A stretch of DNA of 46,856 nucleotides from Alphaproteobacteria bacterium. Lineage in GTDB: Bacteria > Pseudomonadota > Alphaproteobacteria > Rs-D84 > NBLK01. Where the stretch lies: assembly GCA_016937865.1 (NCBI GenBank), contig JAFGVS010000031.1, positions 1 to 46,856 on the forward strand, read 5' to 3'. Positions 6,919 to 41,616 of the stretch are shown in pieces. The notes under the pieces were generated by a model. The model searched no databases and was not told where the DNA came from. It saw only the letters and a program-made list of their open reading frames with translations. The position numbers and the translations under genes are program-made. Within the stretch, counting starts at the first letter, position 1. Each line of letters begins with the position of its first letter.

Positions 6919-7298
6919 TAAACCTCTGTTAAAATTGTCTTCAAGGCTTTTAAATCAGATAAAACCGACGAAAGCGTGCCGCGTAAATCGGGATAAGTTG
7001 GTTTTGTGGAAACAACAGTCGTTGTGCGGAGGTCAGACGGATCTTCTCTGGAAGTCGTTTGAAACGCTTCTTGACGTAAAAACTTTTGAGCCCCTTTAAT
7101 GGTGTAGCCTTTTTTATAGAGTAAATCTTTGATTTTGTATAAAAGCTCAACATCACGGGTATGGTAATAGCGTCGTCCCCCATTTCGGCGAACTGGGCGA
7201 ATGCTTTTGAAATTTTCTTCCCAAAATCGCAGAATGTGTGTCGCCACATCCAATTCTTTTGAGACTTCACCAATAGACTTAAAAAGTTTTTCAGACAT
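6918..7298 (-). CDS. MerR-family transcriptional regulator
   Basis: KSIGEVSKELDVATHILRFWEENFKSIRPVRRNGGRRYYHTRDVELL. Confidence 0.85.
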   Translation of the reverse strand: MSEKLFKSIGEVSKELDVATHILRFWEENFKSIRPVRRNGGRRYYHTRDVELLYKIKDLLYKKGYTIKGAQKFLRQEAFQTTSREDPSDLRTTTVVSTKPTYPDLRGTLSSVLSDLKALKTILTEV

Positions 7299-15351: not shown

Positions 15352-18300
15352 ATGCAGATATTCTTGTTAATGCTTTTGTCGACATTTATGGGCGGATATC
15401 ATTATCTGTCCAGCCCTGCCTTAAATATAGGGCATGATTTTTTACCTGAATCTGTACGAACAAAAACGCTAATTATGTGCGTAATTAACGAGCAGAAAAA
15501 AGCCCTAGATGACAATTCAAAAAACCTACGTGAAAACGGGTATGAATTTGAAAAAACGGCGCCTTGTGCAAAATCTAAAGATGTCATCACAACAAAGTTT
15601 TGCATGCAGGACGGCCAAATATCTCCTGATTGTTATGGGCAGGAGGGAAGTGGTGAAGAGTCCAATTATCTATCAGATCACTATTTTATCACGCGAACGG
15701 ACTTACCTAAGGACATGTCGCAAAGTACGGCATTGGATTATATTAAGAAAATGTCTGGTGGTTTGCCTAATTTAGGTTTATTGTTCAAAGGGGAGGATGA
15801 TAAGTACGTTGTTTTAAATCCACAAACAATGACAGAAACCGTTTCAATCCCAGAACAGCTTATCGGGGCCAACAGCCTTCGGAAACATCAAATCGTCTAC
15901 TTCTCACATCATACCCCTTCGGAAGTGGAGGCAATTGCAGAAAGTTCTGAGTGGGAAGCGTTGAAATGTAGCAAAGAATCAGACATTAAGGTTTTTGATG
16001 GCGAAACGCAAACATGGGGATGCCGGCCATTCGACAACTTTAAAAAATGTTTCGGCGATACCATTGAAGATTCAAAAGGAAACTGTATTCCAAATCTAGG
16101 AAAGAAAATAACATGTTCATCGGATGAGCGTGCAACATTTAATTATGAGGCACTGGCGTGGGAATGTAAACGAAAAGTGTCAGTCGTTTGTCAGGCGAAT
16201 GAAACGTTGGGGTGGAACGGCAGTAAATATGTGTGTATGTATAATGAAAAATTTACCGGAAAAGATTGTGAAGATCTTGTGTTTAATGATACGACCCAAG
16301 ATTGGGAAACGGTTCGTTTGGGGGGATCTGCCGCCGGCTATCCGTGTGGTGCATGTGAAATTAATCAAAGCGGGACGTGTGATGACACGTGTTTCCCAGA
16401 TCCGTCAACTATTCCAGAAAACTTGTGTGCTGGACCTAATTGCGCGTACGAATGTGATACAGAAGAAGGGTGCGGCTGGATTAAGGATTGTAATGGGGGG
16501 CAAAATTGCTCTGATTACAAGACAATTTATTGGGAATCAAACGCAAATAAATGGCATTGTGTAAATTGTTATCCTCTAAAAGTGAAAAAACAGTTCAAAA
16601 GGGGGGACACAGGATGTTTTAGTGCAACGATTCGCGATACAGAAGGATTGATTTCGATTGAATCATGTGATCACAATGGGGCTCAGTATCAAGGAGGCGT
16701 TTCAGGGGATAGTTGTACGCTTCAAGAAAATGATAAAAAAGAATATGAATTACAATGTGTTTTCACAGGTTCTGGGGAATTTGGGGAAGACGGAAGTGGA
16801 GAAAAAAGATTTTTTTGTGATACGGACGATATCAATGACACCAATATATGTGGTTCTCTCAGCAATACAACCTGGGCATGGTATGAGTATCAGGGGAAAT
16901 CACCAGGGTGTATGGATCCGTATGATCAGGACACGGATTTACAGGTTTTAAATAAAGATACGACAAAAATCCCTACTTTATATGATTATAATGGTAAAAA
17001 ATATACATTTGGCTGTCCTTCGGGGTATTACAGACCGCGGACAGCAAAAGGTCAACAATTACAAGCGTGTAAAAAAAGAGTTTGTGATAATTTGCCTGAG
17101 AATAATCAACAGCTGACCCCTACTTATTCAGAAAGACGAACGGCCGATGGACAGGACTGTAAAGCCGGTTATATTGATATTTTAAGAACAAGCCTTTACA
17201 CACATGAAGGGGAGTGTTTTTATTGTTGGATTCCACCAGAAGATTTTGAAGAACCAGGGCCAAAAGAAAGAAATTACGTGTGGAAACTACCGCCAGATAA
17301 AATAGAAATAGAATATTTCTCAGTGCAAACCACAACAAAATCGGGACAATACGATCAAACGTCAACGTTTGAACATTATACAGCATGCGAAAAAGGGAAT
17401 CAGTGTCAAGAGTGGAAAACATCCCCAGGGGCGTATGCGGAAATTTCATGTTATAAAGATGACGATGGGTTTTGTCTAGACGCACCGTCTGCACATAACA
17501 GCCCACCAGGATGGCAGCGCACTTGGTCAAACGGCGCATGGTCAGATCCAACACCAAACTGGTGTAACGATAGTGGAACCCCGAATTTTCCACAAGATGA
17601 AAGTGGACAGCTCTTAAACACGTGGGACACCAAAAGTCAGGGACGTTGCCCGCCAAATTATCAGACCAAGCTAAACGGGCGCGTGGCAAACGGTGTTTTC
17701 ACTGCGTGTCTATATTGTTTACCCCAACCTTTTAAAGTGTCGGAAGTTTCTTCTTTACTAAGTGGTGATCCAAATCCACTCCCTACCGATCCAGAAGGAG
17801 ACCCCATAATTGAGAAACCACAACAACCCGGGGCATGGCAATTAAACCGGTGTTATGATGATGTGGCAGAATCAGAATATTCCCTTGCGGATTTATCAAA
17901 TGTTACGAAATGGACAGATCCAGATTATAGCGGGCTTAAATACGCTTACGCACCGAACTATTGTGACATCTCAATCGTTTCCGAAGGCTGCGCTTTGGGG
18001 ACAAAAAGAAGCTGGGTTGGGGGCTGGAGCAATTGTGAACCAAATCTTTGTCGGTCGGAAGACAAAGACAGAACAGGTATGAATATCCCGATGTTATTTA
18101 AAGATGGTGACGGGAATTACTGTGTTTATATGTGGCGCCCGCCATATAATGGAGTACCGCCATATCGGGATGAAAATAGTACATTTTCGGATTGGTCTGC
18201 ATATTATTACAAAGAGATAATATGGCATACGGACGGTACGAATTATATAGATTATCTCAATGATCATGATCACGATGGACAAATATCAGGGTTATATCCA

Positions 18301-21300
18301 AGAGGGGAGAATCTCGATGATGATGGATATTATCTGGATAAAGACCTGGAATACAACGAAGACGGTCATAATTACACATGGGCGGATGAAACCGGGTGGA
18401 CACGCAAACAAATTTGGTGTGGCACGACCCCAACCATAAATGACATCCAGCCAGATTCGTTATTCCCAACAACCGGACAGCTCGAAGGATCCGGTGCGGA
18501 GGCCTGTTATAACACTGTACAACCAACGTTATCTGTGTGGAAGACATGTAAATCAATGTATTGTGAATCAACAGATTGTATGTCAAATTCAGAATTTAAA
18601 ACATGTCTTTTCACAGAATGTACAAATAATGCCGGATGTGTCAAAAATACAGAAGCAAACGATTTTGAGTTTTGTACAGTAGGTCAACCAAGTATCAGCC
18701 CTTGGGATCCGGCAACGGGATGGCAAGACTGTGAAACAAATTGGTGTCGAGATGAGCCAGGTAGAAAGCAAGGTAAGTATATAAAAGTTTTGGATGAAGA
18801 AGAAACGTGTCTATATGCGTGGAAACCTGAATACGTGGAAAGTCTTTGGGAAAACTGGAAAAACACGTATGCCTTTGATGTGCCAGGTACGGATGAAACG
18901 ATCTATTTAGAAGAGGCTGTTGTTGTTGCTTCAAATTGCTGCGTTGAAGGGGCTGACAGCTATTTGCAGGATGGTGGTGAAATAGTCTTTAATACGGGGT
19001 TCAAGGTCATTTGGGAATCAGATACTGTCGGGTGGAAAATCAGACCGAACTGGTGTGATGGGGAAGGTTTGGCAGATACGATGTATCCGAAAAAAGCGGC
19101 GTTTTATCCATGGACGGCAAAACGTGACGAGGTAAATTGGTGTCTTAAAAAAACTCAAGCTTCTTTTGAAAATTGGGGGACGTGCAAAACAACAAGCAAT
19201 TGTCCTGGGGGCGATTGCAAAACAGATGCTTTTCAAACGTGTTTGTATGAAGCATGTATTGGCAGTGCAGAATGTCCATTTAGTAACGCGGTCGAAACAA
19301 GTGCGATCTGTTCATCGGGGGATCAAATTTCAAATTGGGAAGGGGGCGTCGATGGTCGGGGATGGCTCGATTGTGGATTTAATTGGTGTGATGATGCAAC
19401 AAAAACAGACGATCCAGCTTTAACAAATTATCCATGGACAGCCCGTGTGGTTGGGACCTGCTTGAAACCCGTACGTTCAAGTGTAGAAATATGGAATACG
19501 TGTAAAGCAGCCCATTGTCCTTCAAGTACCTGTTCTGGGAATATTCTGTTCCAAACATGTTTATATGAAAAATGCAAAACAGACGCGGTGTGTTTAGAAA
19601 CAACAGACCCAGAATGGAGTCTGCAAACAGTACAAGCGGGCAAGCCAATAAAACAAGTCTGGGATGGCACGGCGCTAACAGGCGGTTGGGGAGAAAAAGA
19701 GCTTAATTTCTGTTCGGGAAATAATGCGCCAGCAGAAAATCTTAGCCAGCTATTTGTGACACAGAGAACGGTTGAATCTGAATTATGTGCAGATATTTGG
19801 TTGCCAGATTATGGAACATGGGATGGATTAAGAACGAAACCAACATGGGAAAGTTTTGATAATACAACGGACATCGAAAGTTTTGACTTTCTCAGCTGTA
19901 CAGGAACGTGTCCAACAGACGCGCAAACAGAAACGGCATTAGGATGCACACTATCTTTCACGCGTCGGACATGGCTAGAAAAAACGATTGGTTGGCCCGC
20001 CACATGCGATACAGAGATCGGGAAATGTGCTTTTGAAACACCACAAACAAACTTTTTCCGTATTAAAGATACAAAAATAGATCCGGAATGTATCCGATAT
20101 TATCGTCCGACGTGGGATTTGTGGAGCGGTGGCCCTCAAGGGGCATGGGATGTAGGAGAAATTCCTAAAATAGAAAAATACTGTGACGATAATCCTGGCG
20201 TAACGGAATGTAAAAACGCAGCCGAAAAAACGAGTGATGGCTGTCCGCATTCTTCCTTACAGGAAAGAACATGGACAAATGATGTGTGGCCAGATACGTG
20301 TACTGTAAAATGGTGTAATGTTACCGCGACGGATCCAACGGGATCAAACGATCGACTTTTGGTGAGCGATGGCGGATGCGCAAAATTATGGCGCCCGGGC
20401 CATAGTGTTTGGAAAGACTACAAGGACACCGGAACATGGAATGCGTATAAGGCGGATCAGACTGCATTTAAACCACATCCATGTGATAAAGACAATTGCC
20501 CAGTAGATTTCGGAAAAGAAACAGATAATAATGAATGTTTATTAACGTCCAGATATCGAAACTGGAATGACGATGGCGGGTGGAGTGATTGTACATCTGT
20601 GACATGGTGTGGGGCTCCTCCAAGTCCAAGCGACGAAGATAAAAGATTTTTAGTCGATGATGGGGCTTGTGGAAAATTGTGGCGTCCGGATTATACGACA
20701 TGGATAGCCGAAACGTACGCAACAACGGCAACGTGGGAGGCGCACAACGCAAATAATAATACATTTGCGCCATATAATTGTAGTTCGGATACTAACTGTC
20801 CGACGGATTATGATGATGGATTGTCGGGTTATGCATTTGAAATAGACAACACAGGTTGCTTAACTTTTAAATACCGCAGGTGGGAAGATGCAACAGGTTG
20901 GTTAGACTCAGATGGGGCAAATACGTGTGAGCATGTAATCAATAAATGTACAACACCATCTGAAGAAGCAACGAAGCCTGCGCATTATTTCCATAAAACA
21001 GACGGTGCATGCGTTCGTTACTATCGCCCAAGCTATAAACTCTGGATCGGTGGTAGTTATTTTGATAGATTAATACGTTCTTGGAAGAATAAAACGTATA
21101 ATGCATGGAGTGATGGGAATCTTGCAGAAATGGAGGCGTACTGTGATGCCAACTCAAGTGCGGATGAGTGTCAAGACAACGAAAACATATCAACAGATAA
21201 TACAGGGTGTACGTTAGGTTTCTTAGAACGCAACTGGGACAACGCAGTAGGGTGGACCGGATGTACACATGAAATCAGGGAATGCAGCGGGGAAGAAGCC

Positions 21301-23469
21301 ACAAAACCGGCCGGATATATCCGCGTAGCAAGCACAGATGGAGATGCAGGCGCCTGTATGCGATACTATCGCCCAACCTATGCATTGTGGAAAGCGCAAT
21401 CCGGCAACATAGATAGAATGGAAACATATTGTAATGGAGGCACGTGTACAGACGCCGAAGGCATAGATGAAGACAGAACAGATTGTACGGCAATTGGTTT
21501 CACATATAACAAATGGGATGCGGCAAGTGGCGTGTGGACAACAGGGTGTACAAATATTGATTGGTCTGCGGGTTTTGAAAATGTTTCACCTGCAACAGCA
21601 TCCGATCCTTTGGCTGTAGACGATGAAAGATTTTTGGTTGAATCTCCAGCCGGGGAAGCAAGTTTATGGATTCCGCCATATACGACCTGGAATACAGGGA
21701 AGCTGATACGAACATGGAATTCGTTCAGAAAAGCATCCGGATATAACACGTATTCTTTGTATAATTGCAGCGGTGATGAAAATTGCCCAACGGATGACGC
21801 AGACCTAAAGGACCATACGGGATGTCCGTTGATATCTATTGATCGGACTTGGACAAACGCAGGCGGATGGTCTGGATGTTCTACTATCACGTGGTGTAAT
21901 GCAGGTGACGCACCAACAAGCGCGAATCAAAGATTTTTTGTCGATGATGGCAGTTGTGCGAAACTATGGCGTCCGAATTATACCATTTGGGATACATATA
22001 AAGGGAGCGCAACCTGGGATGTGTATAATAGTGGGGGGAGTTTTATACAATATAATTGTACCGGAAACAGTGATTGTCCGAATACCGATGCAACATCACC
22101 AGATGACACAGGATGCACAATTCCATTTTTAGAGCGTGTATGGGCTGATGCAACGGGTTGGAGCGGCTGTATAAATATTAATTGGGCCAGTGGATTCAGT
22201 AGTCCAGGTTCGGGAACAGACGATGAACGTTTCTTGGTGGAATCGCCAACTGGGGAAGCAAGCCTTTGGATTCCATCCTATAGTGTCTGGTCTTATGGAA
22301 CAAGAAGGCTAACCGCAACATGGAATGCGTACCGAGGGGCAACCGGATATGCGTATTCACGGTATGATTGTGCAGCTTGTGCAACCGTCCCAACAACAGA
22401 AAACTGTCCAACAACGGGGCATTATTATTACAGAGAATGGACCGATGATGCTGCCGGCTGGCCAACAACGTGTTCGATAAACTGGTGTGCAAGTGCACAA
22501 AGTTTATATAATAATGGTTCTTCTGGATACTTGTTGGAATCCACAGCAGGGGGCTCAGGACTAAAGCCAAATTGCGCCGAGGCAAGTAAAGCCCAACCAC
22601 ATCGGTTTTCGAACAGAACGCTGAGCCAATTGCGCGCTGAATGTAATGGGGATACAGCAGCAGAAGATGCAGATTGTTTCTATAAATCGGGTTATGCAAC
22701 ATCAAATTATGCATATGAAACGCCAACGCAAGCGGAATGTCCGAGTCCCGGATTGGTATGGGATAAAATAATGACATGGAATAACAACACGACAACCGGA
22801 TGGGGGGCATGTGTCGACCGGAATTGCGCGAGCAACGATATCCCGGCGGCCACGGGTGAGCCGTTCACAAGCAACCCATATTTATCCAGTTATTATCAAC
22901 CAACCGCTGTAAGCACAAGTTGTGGGGATGGTTATGTCGAAGCAGGGAAAACGGTCGGCGGAGATGCCACAAAAAGCTGTCGTTTTTGTCAGGTAAGTGA
23001 TGCGAACATAAGTTGTCCAGATGGCATGTTTGCCTATTATATCAGTGGAGGGCAGTTAAAATGTGACATGCCGGCCCCACCGACCGTAACATGTTCTTCT
23101 GAATCAATGACTCCAATGACAGAAGATGGGGCTGTATTACGCTGGGGAGTTCCAATTGATCCAAACGATTTTACTTCTCCTGTTGGGACCGCTAACGTAT
23201 ATCATTATTATTGCCACAATGCAGATCAATCAAATTTTGAATTACATTATTTTGTGCCAGGAACGGCAACGGATAGTTATACCTGTTCAACATCGGCGGT
23301 TGTCTATAATGCAGCGACGGCACCAACAGGGGTGACGGTTACCTATGGAACAATTAAGATTCGCGCTAAAGATGCTGATGGCGCAACAAGTTTTTATAAT
23401 ACTAATAGTTTTATAATCTGTCCAAACGGAGGAAGTGTAATTGGTTGGAAAGAGCAGTTCATAAATTAA
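15352..23469 (+). CDS. Giant (2705 aa) Trp/Cys-rich repetitive, presumably exported protein
   Basis: Single uninterrupted ORF; hydrophobic N-terminus; recurrent GW..C...WC, [KR]LWRP.Y..W / RYYRP.Y..W / SLWIP.Y..W and C...CP motifs. Confidence 0.8.
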   Translation: MQIFLLMLLSTFMGGYHYLSSPALNIGHDFLPESVRTKTLIMCVINEQKKALDDNSKNLRENGYEFEKTAPCAKSKDVITTKFCMQDGQISPDCYGQEGSGEESNYLSDHYFITRTDLPKDMSQSTALDYIKKMSGGLPNLGLLFKGEDDKYVVLNPQTMTETVSIPEQLIGANSLRKHQIVYFSHHTPSEVEAIAESSEWEALKCSKESDIKVFDGETQTWGCRPFDNFKKCFGDTIEDSKGNCIPNLGKKITCSSDERATFNYEALAWECKRKVSVVCQANETLGWNGSKYVCMYNEKFTGKDCEDLVFNDTTQDWETVRLGGSAAGYPCGACEINQSGTCDDTCFPDPSTIPENLCAGPNCAYECDTEEGCGWIKDCNGGQNCSDYKTIYWESNANKWHCVNCYPLKVKKQFKRGDTGCFSATIRDTEGLISIESCDHNGAQYQGGVSGDSCTLQENDKKEYELQCVFTGSGEFGEDGSGEKRFFCDTDDINDTNICGSLSNTTWAWYEYQGKSPGCMDPYDQDTDLQVLNKDTTKIPTLYDYNGKKYTFGCPSGYYRPRTAKGQQLQACKKRVCDNLPENNQQLTPTYSERRTADGQDCKAGYIDILRTSLYTHEGECFYCWIPPEDFEEPGPKERNYVWKLPPDKIEIEYFSVQTTTKSGQYDQTSTFEHYTACEKGNQCQEWKTSPGAYAEISCYKDDDGFCLDAPSAHNSPPGWQRTWSNGAWSDPTPNWCNDSGTPNFPQDESGQLLNTWDTKSQGRCPPNYQTKLNGRVANGVFTACLYCLPQPFKVSEVSSLLSGDPNPLPTDPEGDPIIEKPQQPGAWQLNRCYDDVAESEYSLADLSNVTKWTDPDYSGLKYAYAPNYCDISIVSEGCALGTKRSWVGGWSNCEPNLCRSEDKDRTGMNIPMLFKDGDGNYCVYMWRPPYNGVPPYRDENSTFSDWSAYYYKEIIWHTDGTNYIDYLNDHDHDGQISGLYPRGENLDDDGYYLDKDLEYNEDGHNYTWADETGWTRKQIWCGTTPTINDIQPDSLFPTTGQLEGSGAEACYNTVQPTLSVWKTCKSMYCESTDCMSNSEFKTCLFTECTNNAGCVKNTEANDFEFCTVGQPSISPWDPATGWQDCETNWCRDEPGRKQGKYIKVLDEEETCLYAWKPEYVESLWENWKNTYAFDVPGTDETIYLEEAVVVASNCCVEGADSYLQDGGEIVFNTGFKVIWESDTVGWKIRPNWCDGEGLADTMYPKKAAFYPWTAKRDEVNWCLKKTQASFENWGTCKTTSNCPGGDCKTDAFQTCLYEACIGSAECPFSNAVETSAICSSGDQISNWEGGVDGRGWLDCGFNWCDDATKTDDPALTNYPWTARVVGTCLKPVRSSVEIWNTCKAAHCPSSTCSGNILFQTCLYEKCKTDAVCLETTDPEWSLQTVQAGKPIKQVWDGTALTGGWGEKELNFCSGNNAPAENLSQLFVTQRTVESELCADIWLPDYGTWDGLRTKPTWESFDNTTDIESFDFLSCTGTCPTDAQTETALGCTLSFTRRTWLEKTIGWPATCDTEIGKCAFETPQTNFFRIKDTKIDPECIRYYRPTWDLWSGGPQGAWDVGEIPKIEKYCDDNPGVTECKNAAEKTSDGCPHSSLQERTWTNDVWPDTCTVKWCNVTATDPTGSNDRLLVSDGGCAKLWRPGHSVWKDYKDTGTWNAYKADQTAFKPHPCDKDNCPVDFGKETDNNECLLTSRYRNWNDDGGWSDCTSVTWCGAPPSPSDEDKRFLVDDGACGKLWRPDYTTWIAETYATTATWEAHNANNNTFAPYNCSSDTNCPTDYDDGLSGYAFEIDNTGCLTFKYRRWEDATGWLDSDGANTCEHVINKCTTPSEEATKPAHYFHKTDGACVRYYRPSYKLWIGGSYFDRLIRSWKNKTYNAWSDGNLAEMEAYCDANSSADECQDNENISTDNTGCTLGFLERNWDNAVGWTGCTHEIRECSGEEATKPAGYIRVASTDGDAGACMRYYRPTYALWKAQSGNIDRMETYCNGGTCTDAEGIDEDRTDCTAIGFTYNKWDAASGVWTTGCTNIDWSAGFENVSPATASDPLAVDDERFLVESPAGEASLWIPPYTTWNTGKLIRTWNSFRKASGYNTYSLYNCSGDENCPTDDADLKDHTGCPLISIDRTWTNAGGWSGCSTITWCNAGDAPTSANQRFFVDDGSCAKLWRPNYTIWDTYKGSATWDVYNSGGSFIQYNCTGNSDCPNTDATSPDDTGCTIPFLERVWADATGWSGCININWASGFSSPGSGTDDERFLVESPTGEASLWIPSYSVWSYGTRRLTATWNAYRGATGYAYSRYDCAACATVPTTENCPTTGHYYYREWTDDAAGWPTTCSINWCASAQSLYNNGSSGYLLESTAGGSGLKPNCAEASKAQPHRFSNRTLSQLRAECNGDTAAEDADCFYKSGYATSNYAYETPTQAECPSPGLVWDKIMTWNNNTTTGWGACVDRNCASNDIPAATGEPFTSNPYLSSYYQPTAVSTSCGDGYVEAGKTVGGDATKSCRFCQVSDANISCPDGMFAYYISGGQLKCDMPAPPTVTCSSESMTPMTEDGAVLRWGVPIDPNDFTSPVGTANVYHYYCHNADQSNFELHYFVPGTATDSYTCSTSAVVYNAATAPTGVTVTYGTIKIRAKDADGATSFYNTNSFIICPNGGSVIGWKEQFIN
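20095..22560 (+). repeat. Degenerate tandem coding repeats, ~96-115 aa, inside the giant ORF
   Basis: In-frame [KRS][LY][WY][RI]P motif starts at 20095, 20383, 20674, 21016, 21361, 21661, 21961, 22261; the last four are exactly 300 bp apart. Confidence 0.85.
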
Positions 23470-31195: not shown

Positions 31196-31753
31196 ATGTT
31201 TAACATAAAATTCAAAAGGTATGTTCATCAACTTAAAGAGCTGATGTATAAAAGACCAGTAGGAGCTCAAGAGGTGGCAGAGGCCGAGAACTTAATAGAA
31301 AAGGCCGTTTTATTATCCGAAACAGGTTTTTTTTCTAAAGGAAATAAACGGTTTCTAAAAGAGCAGATGACTAAAATACTGGATTGTGGTAGAGATCATT
31401 TAAAGGCAGGCGAATTTGCAAGTGATTATCGTGCCATAAAGAGTGAGCCGGCGCTAGAATGGTATCGCTCTGCAGATCTTAAAGAGAAACTATACGAAAA
31501 AATATCGCAAAAATGGGATTGGCTTTATGACGAAGAACATCAAAAAAATCTAAATAGAGTCATGCGATTTGAAACATTCACGAATGCCCTTTTTGTAAAA
31601 ACACAACACGGCGAAAATCCTTATCAAGAAGAGATAGATGAAGTCCGAGGTATAAAGCGCGTAGAAGATCCAAAAATCTTAAGAGTAGATTTTAAAAGAA
31701 GAAAAGAATCACCTATTTTAGAAGAAGCAATTCTTTTGAGGCAGCGTGGATAA
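31196..31753 (+). CDS. Hypothetical protein, 185 aa
   Basis: Intact ORF with AGGAG RBS upstream and its own terminator downstream; no family recognised. Confidence 0.6.
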   Translation: MFNIKFKRYVHQLKELMYKRPVGAQEVAEAENLIEKAVLLSETGFFSKGNKRFLKEQMTKILDCGRDHLKAGEFASDYRAIKSEPALEWYRSADLKEKLYEKISQKWDWLYDEEHQKNLNRVMRFETFTNALFVKTQHGENPYQEEIDEVRGIKRVEDPKILRVDFKRRKESPILEEAILLRQRG

Positions 31754-31967: not shown

Positions 31968-32195
31968 CTCTTTAAAACAAGCCAAATGAAATTCAAATAA
32001 TTTAACAATAAAAACGTCAAGCAATAAAAAAAGTGAAATCAAAGTGGCTTTGCCACGGTCATGTTTAAAAGATATTTTTATTTCCAGTATCGCGTACCGC
32101 AGCGTACATATTGTACGTGAGGACACACAGATCACGCCGTAAAATAGATTTAAACAGAATTGGTTTCCAATAGGAACAGAAAGGAACTAATAAAA

Positions 32196-33017
32196 ATGTC
32201 TACATCTATAGACCAAGCTTTTATCAAGCAATTCGAAGTCGATGTCCATTTGGCTTATCAACAAAAAGGGACAAAACTACGTGCGACCGTGCGTTCTAAA
32301 ACAGATATCACGGGAATTTCCACGACTTTTCAAAAAGTCGGAAAAGGAATCGCATCAACAAAATCGCGACACGGTATGGTACCTGTAATGAACCTAGACC
32401 ACACACCTGTGGAATGCGCATTAGAAGATTTCTATGCCGGCGATTGGGTAGATGCATTAGACGAGCTTAAAACAAACGTTGATGAACGTTTTGTTGTGGC
32501 GTCTGCTGGTGCGTATGCTTTGGGACGTAAAACAGATGAGCTAATTGTAAACAAGTTGGGATCTGCAACATCTGCAATCGCGCACGCAACATCTGGTTTA
32601 ACCAAAGATAAAATCATGAATGCGGTGGAAATGCTAAACAGCAATGACGCCCCAGATGATGGTCAAAGATTCGGCATCATCGGTGTAAAACAATGGAGCG
32701 ATTTATTAAATATCCAAGAATTTTCCAGCGCAGATTATGTGGGGGAAAATTATCCATGGCTATCTGGTTCTGAAACACGGAAATGGATGGGCGTGATTTG
32801 GATTTTACATAATGGATTACCGGTAAACACAAACATTCGCGATTGTTTCTTGTATCACAAAAGTGCGATCGGACACGCCGTCGGCAGTGAAGTTCTAACA
32901 GACATTTCATGGCACGGCGAACGTGCTGCACACTTTATTTCAAACCGCATGAGCCAAGGGTCATGCCTGATTGAAGAAAATGGTGTTGTAAAGATCGAAT
33001 GCGATGAAGCTGCGTAA
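32196..33017 (+). CDS. Phage major capsid protein-like (T7-like podovirus type)
   Basis: MSTSIDQAFIKQFEVDVHLAYQQKGTKLRATVRSK..., ...GQRFGIIGVKQWSDLLNIQEFSSADYVGENYPW. Start set at the ATG of MSTSI after AGGAAC. Confidence 0.75.
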   Translation: MSTSIDQAFIKQFEVDVHLAYQQKGTKLRATVRSKTDITGISTTFQKVGKGIASTKSRHGMVPVMNLDHTPVECALEDFYAGDWVDALDELKTNVDERFVVASAGAYALGRKTDELIVNKLGSATSAIAHATSGLTKDKIMNAVEMLNSNDAPDDGQRFGIIGVKQWSDLLNIQEFSSADYVGENYPWLSGSETRKWMGVIWILHNGLPVNTNIRDCFLYHKSAIGHAVGSEVLTDISWHGERAAHFISNRMSQGSCLIEENGVVKIECDEAA

Positions 33018-33155: not shown

Positions 33156-33395
33156 ATGAAACAAGAAAATTTAAGTGTATTGGCCTACGCCAATGGCTTT
33201 ACATTATGGCATTATAAAGATACGGATACATTGCTAAATGTAACCGCATCTACATTTTTCGTGCCGGTGTATAACATTTTAAATGTTGGCGATATGATTA
33301 TGATTAATGCAGGCGCAGGGGCATCGGAAACAGCCGTTGCGTTTGTAAGTGCTCTCAGCAATTCAAGTGTGACACTCAGCACAATGACCCAATAA
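33156..33395 (+). CDS. Small phage structural protein following the capsid gene
   Basis: 79 aa between capsid and gp11-like gene; good RBS. Confidence 0.5.
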   Translation: MKQENLSVLAYANGFTLWHYKDTDTLLNVTASTFFVPVYNILNVGDMIMINAGAGASETAVAFVSALSNSSVTLSTMTQ

Positions 33396-33456: not shown

Positions 33457-34026
33457 ATGGCTTTTTCATCACTCGATTTGTGCTCTCAAGCGCTTCTTAA
33501 AATAGGGGCATCTCCAATACATTCTTTCGAAGCCAAAACCGCAGAATCTAAAATCGCGAGCGCACTCTATGAATCCATAAAGCAAAATATGCTGTCTTGC
33601 TTTCCATGGACATTTGCAATTAAGACAGAGCGATTGGCAAAGTTGGCAACAGATCCAAAAGCGGATTTTGCCTATGCTTTCCAATTGCCAAACGATTGCT
33701 TGCGTGTGCTATCTGCGGGCGTAAACAAAAAATCAACAGGTCTCGATTATCAAATAAAGGCCACGCAACTCTTAACGACAGCAGACGATATTTATATCAC
33801 GTATCTAACGGATATTCCTGAAACAGATTTTCCGCCCTTCTTTCGACAAGCATTGGTTTCACGGTTGGCCAGTGAGTTTTGTTTGCCTCTCACGGAAAAT
33901 ACAACGCTGGCGACATTCTTATTAAAACAAGCGGAAGTCGATGAAAAAAAATCCCGCGTTATTGATTCACAACAAGAAACCCCACGTGCAATTTTAAACT
34001 TCCCCATGATTGATATAAGGGGATAA
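33457..34026 (+). CDS. Tail tubular protein A (T7 gp11)-like adaptor
   Basis: LDLCSQALLKIGASPIHSFEAKTAESKIASALYESIKQNMLSCFPWTFAIKTERLA...FAYAFQLPNDCLRVL. Confidence 0.75.
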   Translation: MAFSSLDLCSQALLKIGASPIHSFEAKTAESKIASALYESIKQNMLSCFPWTFAIKTERLAKLATDPKADFAYAFQLPNDCLRVLSAGVNKKSTGLDYQIKATQLLTTADDIYITYLTDIPETDFPPFFRQALVSRLASEFCLPLTENTTLATFLLKQAEVDEKKSRVIDSQQETPRAILNFPMIDIRG

Positions 34027-34098: not shown

Positions 34099-34554
34099 AT
34101 GGGTGCATCAAACGTTGGTACGTTTGTCGACAGTACGATTGGTATGGTCGAAGGCTACCAAAATCGAAAACAGGAAAAAAAAGAAATCCAAGCACGATTA
34201 GACGCCGAACGTCAAAAAATCGCGCTGGAAAAAAAGAAAGAATATGTCCAAAAATCACAATATGACACCGAGCAGAGAAATCTATTAAAACGGGCTCTGG
34301 CCACACAACGGTCTCGGTATGGGGCTGGGGGAACAGCAGGGAAATCTTTTTCGGCCAAATCGGTACTCAAACGTTTGGATGGGGATGCAAAACGAAATCT
34401 AGAAAATTATAAAGAACTCAGTGATCTTCGATTAGAAAAATTAAACAACAATTTATCCGATGCAGAAACAAATGCGCTACTGGATAAAAAGAGATCAAAA
34501 TTAAATCAGCAGGTTAAATTGGCCAAATCTGGGCGAAAATTATTAGGGAATTAA
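34099..34554 (+). CDS. Putative internal virion (gp14-like) protein
   Basis: Gly/Ala N-terminus then a long charged coiled-coil; position in the virion cluster. Family assignment weak. Confidence 0.45.
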   Translation: MGASNVGTFVDSTIGMVEGYQNRKQEKKEIQARLDAERQKIALEKKKEYVQKSQYDTEQRNLLKRALATQRSRYGAGGTAGKSFSAKSVLKRLDGDAKRNLENYKELSDLRLEKLNNNLSDAETNALLDKKRSKLNQQVKLAKSGRKLLGN

Positions 34555-34565
34555 AAGGGGGAAAA

Positions 34566-35267
34566 ATGCTAAAAGTCATATACACAACAGATGGAATTCA
34601 AAAAGAGTTTCCATTTCCACATCGTATTTTCAAAGATGAAAATTTAACCGTTTTTTTAGAGGAAATACAAATGATGACGGGTTTTGTAATCGAAAACGAA
34701 GACAGCCTAAGTGGCGCTAACGTGGTCTTTAATGTCGCCCCGGAATCAGGAAAAGAATTAACCCTGATGCGTCAAATGCAGATAAAGCGAACTTCCGATT
34801 TTCAACCACAAAACCCACTTGATCTAACCATTTTAAATGTCGAATTAGATTATCAAATTGAAACGCTAAAAGATATTTCCGCACAATTGAGCAAGACGGT
34901 TTCACAAGGATTAATCAGTAATGAGTTGCTGAATTTAACGCTACCAGTGCCCGAAGCAGGAAAAGCATTGTTGTGGTCGCCAACGGCAGATTCCTTGGTG
35001 AATTCCGAAATTAATATCAGTCAAACCATTTTAGATTTAGAAACCGACATCGCAGAAATGGAAAGGCTAAATAATGATATTCGCGCATATCTGGAAATAT
35101 CTGGAGATGCCGGAATTTTAGGAATTGTGAATAATTTAATTGGTTTAATGGCTTCATATCATGTCGATGCTTTTATTACTTTCGGTCATATTTCAGACAG
35201 TCCAGATGAAAATCCCGCCTATGGTCTGATTACAGAAAGTGCAGGAGAAACGATTGATTACACTTAA
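34566..35267 (+). CDS. T7 gp17-like tail fibre N-terminal domain protein, short
   Basis: IYTTDGIQKEFPFPHRIFKDENLTVFLE...NPLDLTILNVELDYQIETLKDIS fits T7-type fibre N-domains; only 233 aa. Confidence 0.65.
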   Translation: MLKVIYTTDGIQKEFPFPHRIFKDENLTVFLEEIQMMTGFVIENEDSLSGANVVFNVAPESGKELTLMRQMQIKRTSDFQPQNPLDLTILNVELDYQIETLKDISAQLSKTVSQGLISNELLNLTLPVPEAGKALLWSPTADSLVNSEINISQTILDLETDIAEMERLNNDIRAYLEISGDAGILGIVNNLIGLMASYHVDAFITFGHISDSPDENPAYGLITESAGETIDYT

Positions 35268-35865
35268 TCATCGTAAAAAAGGTTTTTTGACATTTATAAA
35301 ACTATGGAATGATCTTTCAAGGTTCAAAACGCCACAACATCACAATCAAATCGGTGTTTGGTTAGAACAAATTTATCATGGATTGGATCGAAAAGGGCTA
35401 TTGCTAGCGTTTCGCAATAGTGGAAAATCAACCGTTGTAGCTCTATTTTGTGCATGGATTTTATATCAAAATCCAAACGATAGAATTCTGGTTGTTTCGG
35501 CAGACGCGCGTCTGGCTACGAAAATATCACGGCATATTCGACGCATCATAGAACATCATCCATTGACGGAAAAACTTGTGCCAAAGAAAAAAGAAGAGTG
35601 GGCAGGCTGTGCTTTTTCGATTGAAAGGTCTCAAAAACAACGCGACCCATCTGTAACGGCCTTTGGGATTACCAGCGGGATTACAGGCGCACGTGCAGAT
35701 GTGATTATTTGTGATGATGTCGAAATTCCAAAAAACTGTAACACGGAAGAAAAGCGGGAAGATCTCCGCGAGAGATTAGTCGAATTAGAATTTATTTTGT
35801 CACCCAATGGCATGCAAATTTTTATCGGTACGCCACACACATATGAAACTATTTATCAATCGTAA
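35254..35865 (+). CDS. Terminase large subunit, ATPase domain only
   Basis: Walker A-like LLAFRNSGKST, Walker B VIICDDVE, motif III IFIGTPHTYETIYQ, then stop. Start likely TTG 35254 behind AGGAG (ORF track start is GTG 35239). Confidence 0.75.
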   Translation: MITLNHRKKGFLTFIKLWNDLSRFKTPQHHNQIGVWLEQIYHGLDRKGLLLAFRNSGKSTVVALFCAWILYQNPNDRILVVSADARLATKISRHIRRIIEHHPLTEKLVPKKKEEWAGCAFSIERSQKQRDPSVTAFGITSGITGARADVIICDDVEIPKNCNTEEKREDLRERLVELEFILSPNGMQIFIGTPHTYETIYQS

Positions 35866-35878
35866 AAAGGAAAATAGA

Positions 35879-37315
35879 ATGAATAAAGAAGAATTGTTAA
35901 AAAAATTTGAAAAAGCGAAAGCAACACGACGTCCTTGGGAAAGTATCTGGGAAGAATGTTATCATTATGGATTGCCGCATGGGTCAGCCTTTCACGAAAA
36001 TCAAAAGATAAAATCAGATTTATTTGATTCAACGGCCAGCGATGGGGTAGAACAACTGGCAACAAATTTATTGTCTGAAATGACGCCACCATGGGGGGAC
36101 TGGTTTTCAATCCAATCAAATAAAGAAGAAATGAAAGAGGTGCTAGAGAAAAGCGAAAAAGTTCTAAAAAAACATTTAGAGCGATCAAACTTTTCGGTCG
36201 AAATGCATCAATGTTATTTAGACCTTGTCGCCATTGGAAGCGCTTGTCTATTAGTAGAAGAAGCCCCAATAGGCCTGTCTTCTGCTTTTCGATTTAAGGC
36301 GATCCCGATGCGGAATATGTTTGTTTTGGAAAATGCAACAGGGCGACCAGATACTGTTTTTAATACGGTTATATTCTCGAGCGAAGAATTTTTAAAACGC
36401 TGGCCGAATAGCATATTGGATGAGCAATCAAGACGGGATTTATCCAAAAACAAAGAAAATAAAATCGCGGTACTCGAATGTATTTATCCTATTTTTGAAA
36501 AAGGACAAATCAAAGGATATCGTTATTTGGGCTGTCCGATATCTGGTGTCAAATTATCTAAGGACACAGAATTTATTTTCGATAAAACATTGGCAACAAA
36601 TCCGTTTATGGTCTTTCGATGGATGAAAACAGCCGGGGAAACATACGGTCGATCACCGGTGATGAAAGCCTTGCCAGATATTAAAACAGCCAATATGGTG
36701 GTGGAGCTTATTTTAAAAAATGCCAACCTCGCGATCAGCGGCGTTTGGATGGCGGATGACGACGGGGTGTTAAATACAGAAAATCTGTCGTTAAAACCAG
36801 GCACAATTATCCCCAAAGCGGTCGGATCACAAGGGTTAACACCACTGCAAACGGCCACAGATTTTAATGTATCCGACCTGGTGTTAAATGATTTGCGTGC
36901 GTCGATCCGCAGAAATTTGATGATGGATAAATTATCACAGTTCCAAACAAAAACACCCATGACCGCAACCGAAGTTATTGAAAGATCCGGGGAAACACAA
37001 CGCGTGTTGGGGGCGATTTATGGACGTCTTCACGGGGAGTTATTAACTCCTCTTTTGATGCGTTTGGCGGATATTTTGCAACGCCGGGGAGAAATTCCAT
37101 TGCTTGATTTAAAAGGGGTTGTTAGTCATCCAGTGTATCGTTCCGGTTTAAATAAATTACGTAAAAAAGAAGAGCTACAAAATATAATGGAAGGTTTGAA
37201 TATTTTAAAAATGTTAAATATTGGTCCAGAAAATATTTTGAATACCGAAAAGACTTTGGCGTTTCTAGTGGATAAATTAGATTTGCCATCGTCTATTTTA
37301 AAGATAGAGGAATAA
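35879..37315 (+). CDS. Portal / head-to-tail connector protein (T7 gp8-like)
   Basis: RRPWESIWEECYHYGLPHGSAF...LFDSTASDGVEQLATNLLSEMTPPWGDWFSIQ...; ATG 35879 with AAAAGGAAA RBS. Confidence 0.82.
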   Translation: MNKEELLKKFEKAKATRRPWESIWEECYHYGLPHGSAFHENQKIKSDLFDSTASDGVEQLATNLLSEMTPPWGDWFSIQSNKEEMKEVLEKSEKVLKKHLERSNFSVEMHQCYLDLVAIGSACLLVEEAPIGLSSAFRFKAIPMRNMFVLENATGRPDTVFNTVIFSSEEFLKRWPNSILDEQSRRDLSKNKENKIAVLECIYPIFEKGQIKGYRYLGCPISGVKLSKDTEFIFDKTLATNPFMVFRWMKTAGETYGRSPVMKALPDIKTANMVVELILKNANLAISGVWMADDDGVLNTENLSLKPGTIIPKAVGSQGLTPLQTATDFNVSDLVLNDLRASIRRNLMMDKLSQFQTKTPMTATEVIERSGETQRVLGAIYGRLHGELLTPLLMRLADILQRRGEIPLLDLKGVVSHPVYRSGLNKLRKKEELQNIMEGLNILKMLNIGPENILNTEKTLAFLVDKLDLPSSILKIEE

Positions 37316-37316
37316 G

Positions 37317-37520
37317 ATGTTTGATCGAAATAAGGAGGCGCACGATTTCGTGCGCTGTTTCAATACGCCTGCCGGGCGAAAAGTTTTGTCTTATTTGCGT
37401 GGTATGACGGTTGAAAAAGCGATGGGGCCGGAAACACCGGCTCCGACATTGTATTATCGGGAAGGTCAAAAAGCCTTGGTCAAACATATTGAACATATGA
37501 TTGAAAAAGGACAGAAGTGA
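37317..37520 (+). CDS. Small phage protein, resembles Bbp19-like domain
   Basis: 67 aa; DFVRCFNTPAGRKVLSYLRG...YYREGQKALVKHIEHMI, directly after portal. Confidence 0.5.
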   Translation: MFDRNKEAHDFVRCFNTPAGRKVLSYLRGMTVEKAMGPETPAPTLYYREGQKALVKHIEHMIEKGQK

Positions 37521-37535
37521 AAAAGAAGAAATAAA

Positions 37536-37823
37536 ATGACAGAAATACCTTTATCCTGGTGGATCCAGGTTGTTGAAATCCCCGCATTAGCGGGGCTTTT
37601 TTTATGGACAAAATCTATCCGTTCACAAGCCGAAACACAACACGAACATCTACGCGAAACCTTGGAAGATCGTATTGAAAAGACGCGGGAGGTTTTGGCA
37701 ACGCATAAAGTCGAAGTGGCACAAAAATATGCCTCTATTTCCTATATTCGGGATGTCGAAAAAAGATTAACGGATCATTTGATTCGCATAGAAGAGAAGT
37801 TAGAAGGAAGGAAAAGAAAATGA
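37536..37823 (+). CDS. Hypothetical membrane-anchored coiled-coil phage protein
   Basis: 95 aa; N-terminal hydrophobic segment then charged helix; overlaps the next ORF start by 4 nt. Confidence 0.5.
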   Translation: MTEIPLSWWIQVVEIPALAGLFLWTKSIRSQAETQHEHLRETLEDRIEKTREVLATHKVEVAQKYASISYIRDVEKRLTDHLIRIEEKLEGRKRK

Positions 37824-38224
37824 TTCAAGATATTCAAAACGATAGAGCCAGTGCACAATATTTTACGGCAATCACACTGTATCATGAAGGATATGGCTAT
37901 AATTTAAAAGAGTTAGAAGCCATCGGATCTGTGATTAAAAATAGATTTGACTTTTATAGAAATATCAAACAAAAAAAGACGTGGGAGCAAGTGTGTTCCG
38001 ATGCCACAATTTTTAAATTTTGGAAGACAGATGATTGTATTGAAAGTCCAATTATCACAGATGCTTTTTTTGCCATGTGCTCCCGTGTAGCGGGGCGTGC
38101 TATTTCTGGAGTTCTAACAGATATAACCAATGGCGCTTTGCGTTATCACCATTGCACGGATATGCCGCATTGGGCACGTGGAAAAACAGGGCTGGAAATC
38201 GGTGATTTTATTTTCTATGATTAG
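37820..38224 (+). CDS. Cell-wall hydrolase, SleB-like
   Basis: TLYHEGYGYNLKELEAIGSVIKNRFDFYR...GALRYHHCTDMPHWARGKTGLEIGDFIFY. Confidence 0.65.
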   Translation: MIQDIQNDRASAQYFTAITLYHEGYGYNLKELEAIGSVIKNRFDFYRNIKQKKTWEQVCSDATIFKFWKTDDCIESPIITDAFFAMCSRVAGRAISGVLTDITNGALRYHHCTDMPHWARGKTGLEIGDFIFYD

Positions 38225-38259: not shown

Positions 38260-38787
38260 ATGAAGATTCTAAAAACAATTTTGGACGCTCTGAAAAAAGG
38301 ACTGTCTTCGCTAAAAGCCCTTGTTTCCAAAAACACGGCTCCTCCCAAAAAAACATCAACACCACTCAAACCCATTTTACAAATTCGCGGGCAAGATGCT
38401 TCTGGATCTGGAGCGTTTGGAGCCCCCAGAAAACGAAAAGACGGCTCTCGCTATAAACATCAAGGGATTGATATTAAGTCCAATCCCGGACAAAAAATTC
38501 GGGCGTTGAGCGATGGTATTTTTTTACGAAAAGTAGACCCATATGGGGATGGTAAATTTTCCGGTATGGTAATTAAAGATGCAGCGGGAAATGAACAAAA
38601 AATCTTTTATATTAACACGATCAAAAAAGTCGGAGATGTTCTTGAAAAAGGGCAAATTATGGCGATCGCGCAAGATGTTGCGGATGGGCGGGACATGACA
38701 AACCATTATCATTTTGAGGTTCGAGATAAAAACAAAAAACTCTTGGATCCGAATGATTATCTAAAAAAAGACTATAAATTAGTCTAA
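38260..38787 (+). CDS. M23-type peptidase-like protein
   Basis: RYKHQGIDIKSNPGQKIRALSDGIFL...GMVIKDAAGNEQKIFYINTIKKVGDVLEKGQIMAIAQDVADGRDMTNHYHFEVRD. Confidence 0.75.
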   Translation: MKILKTILDALKKGLSSLKALVSKNTAPPKKTSTPLKPILQIRGQDASGSGAFGAPRKRKDGSRYKHQGIDIKSNPGQKIRALSDGIFLRKVDPYGDGKFSGMVIKDAAGNEQKIFYINTIKKVGDVLEKGQIMAIAQDVADGRDMTNHYHFEVRDKNKKLLDPNDYLKKDYKLV

Positions 38788-38851: not shown

Positions 38852-40699
38852 ATGCCAAAACAAACCTATACGCAAACCTCATTTTCACACGGAATGGTAT
38901 CGCTGCCCATTTTTGTGCGCAGTGATTTAGAGGCCCAAAGCAATGGCCTAATGACATTGGAAAATGCCTATGTAACACCAACCGGAGGCATAAAAAGACG
39001 GGAAGGGACACGTTTTATTGATACGCTTTTGGGGAAATCTCGCCTGATTAATTTCGGCGCGGCAAAACAAGAAGTTTTGGTTGTTTTAAGTAATCTAAAA
39101 ATAGCCATTTATGAAGAAGATGTTAAGGTTTTTGAGGCGACTTCGCCATGGCGCGAAAACGAAATTCAACACGTGCAATGGACGCAAAATGTAGACACAT
39201 TATTTTTAGTACATCCTGATTTTGCACCGAAGAAGCTCAGGAAGGCAAAAAATGTTTGGCAGTTTCAAAATTGGATATTTCAAACAAATATAGACGGATT
39301 AACCTTAGATCCTTTTTATAAATTTGATGATACGGAAGGCGTGTTGCTAACGCCACTTGGAACCAGTGGCACATTCATTGTAAACGTGTCAACACAGTAC
39401 TTTTCAGAAGAACATATTGGTCTAAAAATACGTCTGAACGACGGTGAGATGATTATAACGCAAGTTATTGATGACAGCAGCATTCAAGTGCAAAGTAGCA
39501 AGGATTTAATCTCCTTGGATCAAAGCAGCGATTGGATTGAATCGTGCTTTTCAGATCAGCGGGGCTGGCCGATTTCGATTTCTTTTCATCAAAATCGTCT
39601 GGTTGTTGGAGGTTCTAAATCCTTGCCACATAAAGTATGGATGTCAAAAACAGGGGATTTTTTCAACTTTGATTTTGGGGAAGGTTTGGATGATGAAGCC
39701 ATTACATTCAGTCTGCTCTCAGATCAGCGCGAACATATTTCAAGTGTGTTTTCAGGAACACATTTGCAAGTTTTAACCGCCCAATCGGAATGGATGGTCG
39801 GCGGTGAACCCTTAACACCCGCAACAATAAACGTAAAGAAACAAACGACCATCGGATCTCATTTGGACCGATATTTGCCACCTCAAAACGTAGAAGGGGC
39901 AACCATCTTTATTGCAAAAAACGGAAAAGAAATCCGTGAATTTATTTATGGTGAGGTTGAAAAAACGTATCAGTCCTATGACTTAGCATTGCTGGCAGGA
40001 CATCTCATGGAAACACCTGTGGATCAAACCTATAATGACGAAAACCGTAAATTATATGTTGTTATGGAAACCGGAAACATGGCGGTCTTGGTATTGAATA
40101 AAAGTGTCGGGGTTGCCGGCTGGAGTGTGTATAAAACACAAGGTAATTTTCAATCAATTGCGATTGTAAATGGGCAAACATATATCAGTGTCGCGCGGGC
40201 AACTGGGGTGTTTTTGGAAAAATTTGATGAAAGAGTGCACTTAGATTCAAGTATTTCCACCAAAGACGCAAATGTGGTTATCTTGCCACACTTAAATAAT
40301 CAAAACAGTGGATGGACAGGGGATGATTTTCGCTCTGGTGAAGATGTGGTTCAAGACAATAATTTAGGCTTGCCAGAAATCATGGAAACAACGGATGCAG
40401 GCTTAAATTATACCCACGTTATCGAACCGCTGCCAATTTTAAATCTAAATGGGGAAGTGGCAAAAAAATGGCGCCTAATTGAGTTGCGTTTAAGTCTGAA
40501 AAAATCTCATTTGTTAGAGCTTAGCATGCAAGATGAAACACACACAGTTCAGTTGGATGAGGACGTGTTTACAGGCAGCTATCGTTTGAAAGCGTTGGGA
40601 TATATTGAAGATCTAACGACATCTTTGTGGAAGATTGAAAGTAACAAACCGTATGCCTTTGAATTCTTGGGATATACCGCATTTATCAAAACCATATAA
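38852..40699 (+). CDS. Tail tubular protein B (gp12)-like / phage tail protein
   Basis: SFSHGMVSLPIFVRSDLEAQSNGLMTLENAYVTPTGGIKRREGTRFIDTL..., SISFHQNRLVVGGSKSLPHKVWMSKTGDFFNF, LTAQSEWMVGG. Confidence 0.75.
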   Translation: MPKQTYTQTSFSHGMVSLPIFVRSDLEAQSNGLMTLENAYVTPTGGIKRREGTRFIDTLLGKSRLINFGAAKQEVLVVLSNLKIAIYEEDVKVFEATSPWRENEIQHVQWTQNVDTLFLVHPDFAPKKLRKAKNVWQFQNWIFQTNIDGLTLDPFYKFDDTEGVLLTPLGTSGTFIVNVSTQYFSEEHIGLKIRLNDGEMIITQVIDDSSIQVQSSKDLISLDQSSDWIESCFSDQRGWPISISFHQNRLVVGGSKSLPHKVWMSKTGDFFNFDFGEGLDDEAITFSLLSDQREHISSVFSGTHLQVLTAQSEWMVGGEPLTPATINVKKQTTIGSHLDRYLPPQNVEGATIFIAKNGKEIREFIYGEVEKTYQSYDLALLAGHLMETPVDQTYNDENRKLYVVMETGNMAVLVLNKSVGVAGWSVYKTQGNFQSIAIVNGQTYISVARATGVFLEKFDERVHLDSSISTKDANVVILPHLNNQNSGWTGDDFRSGEDVVQDNNLGLPEIMETTDAGLNYTHVIEPLPILNLNGEVAKKWRLIELRLSLKKSHLLELSMQDETHTVQLDEDVFTGSYRLKALGYIEDLTTSLWKIESNKPYAFEFLGYTAFIKTI

Positions 40700-40922: not shown

Positions 40923-41616
40923 ATGACTGAAAGACCAGAGTTCTTACCTGAAAAGTTTTGGGATATGGAAAAAAAATGCGCCTCGTTTAGAAGCGATGAG
41001 TAAATCATACAAAGAATTGGAAAAGCGTTTTTCTCAAACACATCAGTTTTCAAAAGAAAATTTAAATGATGAAGAAAAAAAACAAATCTTAAAAATGTTG
41101 GGACATCCCGAAGCGCCCTCTGCGTATGAGGATGTCTTGGCTGATAAATTCCAAATCGATTCAGAGGCGAATGAAAAGTTGCATGCGGTCGGGTTAACAC
41201 CGGAACAAGTCCAAGTTGTGTATGAATTGGCGAATGAACGTCTGATGCCACAATTAGAAGAGGCCGAAAAAAACACAGAAAGTATGCAACAAAACTTATT
41301 GTTAAAAGATTATTTTGGATCAGAAACGGCGGTTGAATCGGTGGCGAAACAAGTGCTCGCTTATGCCGAAAATAATTTTTCACCAGATGTCGCCGAAGAA
41401 CTCTGTCAAAGCGCCAAAGGGGTGATTGGGATCTATGAAATGATGCAATCGAATAAAGAGCCCGGAATTTTGGCCGGAAAAGGCGAAGATATGGAAAACC
41501 TCTCTGACCAGTCACTCCGTAAAATGATGCAAGACCCGAAATATTGGCGTGAACAAGATCCTGAATTTGTTAAAAAAGTCAAAATTGGTTTTGAAAAGCT
41601 ATACGGCGAAAAATAA
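40923..41616 (+). CDS. Capsid assembly / scaffold-like protein, interrupted by a +1 frame change at an A8 tract
   Basis: Frame 1 MTERPEFLPEKFWDMEK joins NAPRLEAMSKSYKELEKRFSQTHQF... in the next frame at 40969-40976. ORF track shows only 40996..41616. Confidence 0.65.

Follow-up and report, generated by a model that had tools for sequence, protein, structure and literature searches.

A T7-type terminase large subunit apparently divided between two genes across an order of Alphaproteobacteria

Current models of phage DNA packaging place the ATPase core, the lid and the nuclease of the terminase large subunit (TerL) in a single chain. In phage T7 this chain is gp19, or DNA maturase B (PDB 8dgc and 4bij; phrog_38), a protein of 586 residues. 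The corresponding parts of T4 gp17 are termed engine, transmission and translocation, and a gp17 engineered as two pieces, cut at the lid–nuclease linker, retained its ATPase and nuclease activities while its DNA translocation was abolished (PMC3012670). Part-length TerL-like ORFs also occur in some phage records (phrog_4758, phrog_17672, phrog_15524 and phrog_5573). Among gene transfer agents, RcGTA and BaGTA are compact phage-derived structural clusters with signs of vertical inheritance and constrained capsid and terminase genes, with no report of a split TerL in either (PMC9662315, PMC7947584). The Bartonella locus of BaGTA (Bartogtaviriformidae) is larger and combines a BaGTA-type TerL with an HK97-type capsid (PMC9662315), and a survey of RcGTA-like elements listed no predicted members for Rhodospirillales (PMC6821227). 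Our search of open-access papers turned up no account of a split terminase, nor one of a T7-type gene transfer agent from Rhodospirillales.

The locus described here differs from these systems in how its terminase is encoded. Whereas T7 gp19 is one protein, the order to which the host belongs has two genes, here called TerL-N and TerL-C, both homologous to gp19, and in the host's own genome only the first half was found. The nearest single-gene counterparts, fused TerLs of about 495 residues in Rhodospirillales, Micavibrio and some gut alphaproteobacteria, have the same neighbours and an ATPase core 46–56% identical to that of TerL-N, but in the host's order the protein is split in the loop before the lid. 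The break also differs from that in at least two of the part-length phage families, phrog_17672 and phrog_15524, whose junction is near residue 365 of T7-like TerLs.

The window, the whole stretch of DNA that was analysed, is an entire contig of 46,856 bases from an 852-kb, 67-contig assembly with an estimated completeness of 99.93%. Its structural cluster covers about 10 kb and ends at 41616; it begins with the capsid gene at 32160, or perhaps already at 31196, and has the following features.

31196..31753, + strand: 185-residue ORF upstream of the capsid gene, cluster membership uncertain (no Pfam or PHROG match)
32160..33017, + strand: major capsid protein (PF19821, 9.2e-76; phrog_3437, 3e-72)
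33156..33395, + strand: small conserved phage protein, phrog_18004 (2e-11; orthologues in 17 of 20 relatives' loci)
33457..34026, + strand: tail tube A, T7 gp11 type (phrog_394, 7.1e-46)
34099..34554, + strand: internal virion protein, T7 gp14 type, a weak assignment (PF24072, 0.0027, below cut-off; orthologues in 18–19 of 20 loci)
34566..35267, + strand: tail fibre protein, N-terminal part, overlapping the start of TerL-N (phrog_1640, 2.2e-07)
35254..35865, + strand: TerL-N, the subdomain I (ATPase core) part of a T7-type TerL (phrog_38, 9.6e-51; 8dgc, 3e-28; ribosome-binding site; same-length orthologues in the order)
35879..37315, + strand: portal, or head-tail connecting protein (PF12236, 1e-100)
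37317..37520, + strand: Bbp19-like small phage protein (PF25181, 6.3e-12)
37536..37823, + strand: small conserved phage protein, phrog_29007, the ancestral downstream neighbour of TerL (3.7e-24)
37820..38224, + strand: cell wall hydrolase, lysis (PF07486, 3.9e-07)
38260..38787, + strand: M23 peptidase (PF01551, 1.9e-09)
38852..40699, + strand: tail tube B, or nozzle protein, T7 gp12 type, relocated to the cluster end compared with relatives (phrog_376, 7.3e-100)
40996..41616, + strand: capsid assembly (scaffold) protein, T7 gp9 type (PF05396, 7.1e-08)

The 185-residue ORF was considered as the counterpart of a similarly placed gene in relatives and rejected, the two having no similarity. The fibre gene encodes an N-terminal part only, of 233 residues; fibre ORFs of relatives have 146–240 residues and those of fused-TerL clusters mostly about 400–690, and the receptor-binding part may be separate or lost in the order. 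Elsewhere on the contig lies an ORF of 2,705 residues (15352–23469).

The cluster is flanked by a Na/H exchanger gene on one side and by genes for an EF-hand protein, PlsX and FabH on the other. Family searches over the cluster and the nearby window genes recognised no integrase or replication genes, leaving a virus-derived structural cluster, as would be expected of a gene transfer agent (viriform). It is not the head-tail cluster of RcGTA (Rhodogtaviriformidae): the capsid (PF19821), the portal (PF12236), the tail tubes and TerL are all of T7 type. It resembles RcGTA and BaGTA in being a compact phage-derived structural cluster and differs from them in its T7-type capsid, portal and short tail. 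Base composition is close to that of the surroundings, with a GC fraction of 0.391 in the cluster vs 0.408 in the rest of the contig. The genes are clearly of phage type and the isolated Pelagibacter phage EXVC031P Hodr has the same module, as would suit a temperate or defective prophage of the ordinary kind, acquired recently; this origin is nevertheless unlikely given the host-like composition, the lack of recognised integrase or replication genes, the order-wide presence of the cluster with tree groups that follow host families, and its near-single copy number across the class.

The breadth of the distribution would suit a domesticated particle, for which a gene transfer agent is a candidate. 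In a sample of 240 Alphaproteobacteria genomes, about 40 carry the capsid gene at 47–68% identity, nearly always in one copy; a second group of about 20 genomes, at 36% identity or less, probably represents ordinary phages. On inspection, groups in the TerL tree follow host families and the cluster is near-single-copy at class level, which may, but need not, reflect co-evolution with the host lineage. A 5,084-base human faecal scaffold deposited as 'Bacteriophage sp.' (MT838907.1) is a piece of such a cluster, with a capsid 62% identical, so the element has been deposited as phage DNA.

TerL-N occupies an ORF of 208 residues at 35239–35865 (+), with its TAA at 35863–35865. The original prediction, made from the DNA of the window, had begun the gene at the GTG at 35239; the TTG at 35254 is the likelier start because a ribosome-binding sequence, GCAGGAGA, lies directly before it. 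The landmarks that the prediction had listed are all in place: Walker A, FRNSGKST (35410–35433); Walker B, VIICDDVE (35701–35724); the segment GTPHTYETIY (35827–35856), followed by the stop; and the portal ATG at 35879, 13 nt past the stop with AAAGGA in the gap. Its assignment to the T7 gp19 type also holds, since residues 8–207 align to residues 12–211 of the 586-residue terminase 8dgc (E = 3e-28) and the match to phrog_38 (9.6e-51) covers profile positions 269–458 of 760. Walker A, Walker B with its catalytic carboxylate and motif III, the marks of a T7-type TerL, are all found in TerL-N. The polypeptide has neither the lid subdomain nor the RNase H-fold nuclease because the ORF stops after motif III. 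TerL-N is ATPase subdomain I, less than a whole ATPase domain. The nuclease is absent as predicted, but the ORF, said to end cleanly after the ATPase domain, ends inside it and the lid is missing too.

The 208-codon ORF is a real T7-type ATPase core, more than a chance match, because orthologues that stop equally early are present in 54 of 58 relatives from the same order (48–60% identical; open frames of about 200–250 residues). The same ending in these orthologues means that the stop is neither an assembly join nor private decay. An assembly deletion as its origin was rejected, as the same end recurs in more than 100 independent genomes, and a random pseudogene was rejected on the conserved motifs, the dN/dS values of relatives and the intact neighbouring genes.

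The remainder of the terminase is encoded separately in these relatives. A profile of fused TerLs found homologues in 135 of 142 genomes of the order and gave at least two separate matches in 128 of them, which among the matches listed meet near position 205 of the 492-position model; with G006, where both halves are adjacent, 129 of the 142 genomes have both. The usual arrangement is two ORFs, one for an ATPase core of about 200 residues and one for a lid-plus-nuclease protein of about 290. With a profile of C-terminal halves, taken from eleven phage TerLs, we found a separate TerL-C ORF within the same cluster in 17 of 20 relatives' loci; a profile built from the relatives' own TerL-C added an eighteenth, cut by the end of its locus. 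With an alignment profile, TerL-C was found in 54 of the 58 relatives. Both halves are present in 53 of them, TerL-N alone in the window's genome and in G027, and TerL-C alone in G015. One further TerL-C-like match, in G002, comprised 28 residues with a stop and no cluster genes nearby, and was rejected.

TerL-C is a predicted nuclease. The aligned proteins keep nuclease-type acidic residues (WDP, ETNG and DDGLD) with D106, E173, D250, D251 and D254 invariant; all 16 proteins tested match PF22530, the T7 terminase RNase H family, and 10 of the 16 match Terminase_6C, while the nuclease half matches residues 406–481 of 8dgc. Values of dN/dS in relatives are 0.05–0.13 for TerL-N and 0.04–0.25 for TerL-C, which, with dS near saturation, indicates purifying selection on both halves. 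Together the two proteins make up one complete TerL, covering phrog_38 consecutively, TerL-N at 269–458 and TerL-C at 468–702.

The break coincides with a variable linker of 10–15 residues in fused TerLs, between GTPHxxxTIY and PFLxGFxxLKIPI. Judged by where the motifs are placed, and in the terms used for T4 gp17, the engine (subdomain I) would reside in TerL-N, and the transmission (lid) together with the translocation, or nuclease, domain in TerL-C. Spacing of the two genes varies with host family. The halves found in families f2, f3 and f5 share a strand and are separated by 174–379 nt; the separation is 1.8–7.5 kb in f4 and f6, and in f6 opposite-strand genes, for example those of a DnaB helicase and an HTH regulator, often lie between them. 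Several members of f4 also encode a 527-residue protein of the FtsZ/tubulin family just upstream of the portal gene (8 loci, as at 7067–8647 of L028).

Outside the order the same cluster carries an undivided TerL of about 495 residues, mostly about 470–525. Carriers, free-living relatives among them, include Magnetospirillum, Thalassospira, Skermanella, Caenispirillum, Micavibrio and rumen or gut alphaproteobacteria, and their gene order is portal, Bbp19, scaffold, capsid, the small gene, tail tubes, gp14, fibre, TerL, phrog_29007 and cell wall hydrolase. Full-length orthologues at this cluster, which would have refuted the original claim, were found only outside the order. Among the 40 closest viral contigs, a single ORF spans both halves in 39 and the other contig is split; a later, larger set of viral contigs contains 94 fused and 17 split, with a further eight that have TerL-N alone on short contigs. 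A split TerL was also sought in the isolated phages nearest to TerL-C and not found, their TerLs being fused proteins of 557–561 residues.

A tree of 64 TerL sequences, in which groups track host families, requires one change between fused and split, a value as low as which was never reached in 500 label shufflings. The split group has an SH-aLRT value of 91 (quick method, not starred), and so a single origin is favoured, not proven. These comparisons recast the original claim of a domain loss. The junction is indeed precise and free of random decay, with the same ending in 54 of 58 relatives, but loss was the wrong kind of event: what the comparisons indicate is a gene fission shared across the order, with the cut between ATPase subdomain I and the lid, possibly followed by a later loss in the window's genome. 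The separately encoded nuclease that had been postulated exists in the order, adjacent to the ATPase gene or a few kb from it, and is missing from the host's own assembly.

That assembly was searched in several ways. No TerL-C was found in its 852 kb with the alignment profile, phrog_38, one TerL-C protein or Terminase_6C, and a DNA pattern for DDG-hydrophobic-D, able to pick out TerL-C in six relatives, had no match there. The window itself, translated in six frames, matched neither the phage C-half profile nor that of the relatives, and the contig ends of the assembly hold no TerL-C fragments. The orphan nuclease domain whose search had been suggested thus did not come to light by profiles, protein query, Pfam family or motif pattern. 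The local gene order has also changed. Portal and Bbp19 stand between TerL-N and the phrog_29007 and cell wall hydrolase genes, which ancestrally follow TerL directly; the portal has the place held by the nuclease half or the next genes in relatives and ancestors; and scaffold and tail tube B are at the cluster end, unlike the ancestral order.

A gap in the assembly possibly accounts for this absence, and true loss is about equally possible. The gap is conceivable, even with the assembly origin of the stop itself excluded, because TerL-N alone was also found in G027, G317 and G321 in the search of the 142 genomes, so that pairs with one half missing occur at a few per cent. The assembly is MAG-like, with 67 contigs, and the structural ORFs other than TerL are intact and of normal length, all of which would suit an ordinary two-gene member of the order whose TerL-C went unassembled. 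We put this reading at slightly less than an even chance; against it, the entire cluster sits within a single contig and is flanked by host genes, TerL-C of relatives almost always lies within about 8 kb of TerL-N, and no fragment of it turned up at contig ends.

Alternatively, the window's species may have truly lost TerL-C, the element dying with TerL-N as a leftover at the first stage of decay. An assembly estimated at 99.93% complete without TerL-C and a scrambled cluster are consistent with this, as is the absence of both portal and TerL from the other two genomes of the window's family, from which the element may be vanishing; these two genomes, however, are only 72% and 80% complete. 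The intact neighbouring ORFs, the kept motifs of TerL-N and its lack of a long branch weigh on the opposite side, and we entertain loss tentatively.

A third reading keeps the element active with a packaging ATPase that has no nuclease of its own; a host enzyme such as RuvC or RNase H would then cut the DNA, or the fragments packaged would already be cut. The ATPase core and cluster are intact, the assembled genome has no TerL nuclease, and motors of the phi29 type run without an active nuclease (PMC7672431). The likeness to phi29 gp16 is incomplete, as the gp16 chain still includes a vestigial nuclease domain and phi29 packages unit-length DNA. This reading is improbable: the lid, believed to be the force transmitter, is missing from TerL-N as well, and both halves are kept in 53 of 58 relatives and in 129 of the 142 genomes of the order.

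Taken as a whole, the evidence is best explained by an early-captured, vertically inherited T7-type cluster whose terL was split in the order's ancestor to give a two-protein terminase, a reading to which we assign a probability of roughly 75%. A particle cluster of a T7-type short-tailed phage would have been captured early in Alphaproteobacteria and inherited vertically ever since; it is probably a gene transfer agent or some other domesticated particle. When the window's order arose, terL would in its ancestor have been cut in a variable loop, where subdomain I ends with GTPHxxxTIY and the lid starts at about PFLxGFxxLKIPI, leaving TerL-N (about 200 residues) with the Walker motifs and motif III, and TerL-C (about 290 residues) with the lid and the RNase H-fold nuclease. 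The split, the position and conservation of the break, and the catalytic residues conserved in both halves are read directly from the genes; reassembly of the halves, packaging and transfer of host DNA we infer from them. The halves most likely come together again on the portal as a heteromeric motor, in which TerL-N would burn ATP, the lid of TerL-C would pack on TerL-N non-covalently and relay the stroke, and TerL-C would cut the DNA. In the window's genome a second rearrangement would have brought portal and Bbp19 to the site after TerL-N where TerL-C is expected; TerL-C itself would be either in a gap or lost, leaving an element that is dead, nuclease-free or supplied with a nuclease from elsewhere.

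Because splitting T4 gp17 abolished translocation, a divided motor would be expected to need adaptation in order to work. The two breaks differ, however: that in gp17 lies between lid and nuclease, whereas the natural break of the order sets the ATPase core apart while lid and nuclease stay together. As for the class-wide T7-type cluster, which occurs in Rhodospirillales among others, it may represent a family of gene transfer agents not yet described. We tentatively propose, at somewhat less than even odds, that Alphaproteobacteria harbour an undescribed, vertically inherited T7-type lineage of such agents in which one reduced-genome order uses a two-protein terminase, that a covalent link between core and lid is dispensable for packaging, and that the window's species may even have shed the nuclease subunit. 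The natural, order-wide split would then provide a two-component packaging motor, whose coupling could be tested by mixing the separately purified parts.
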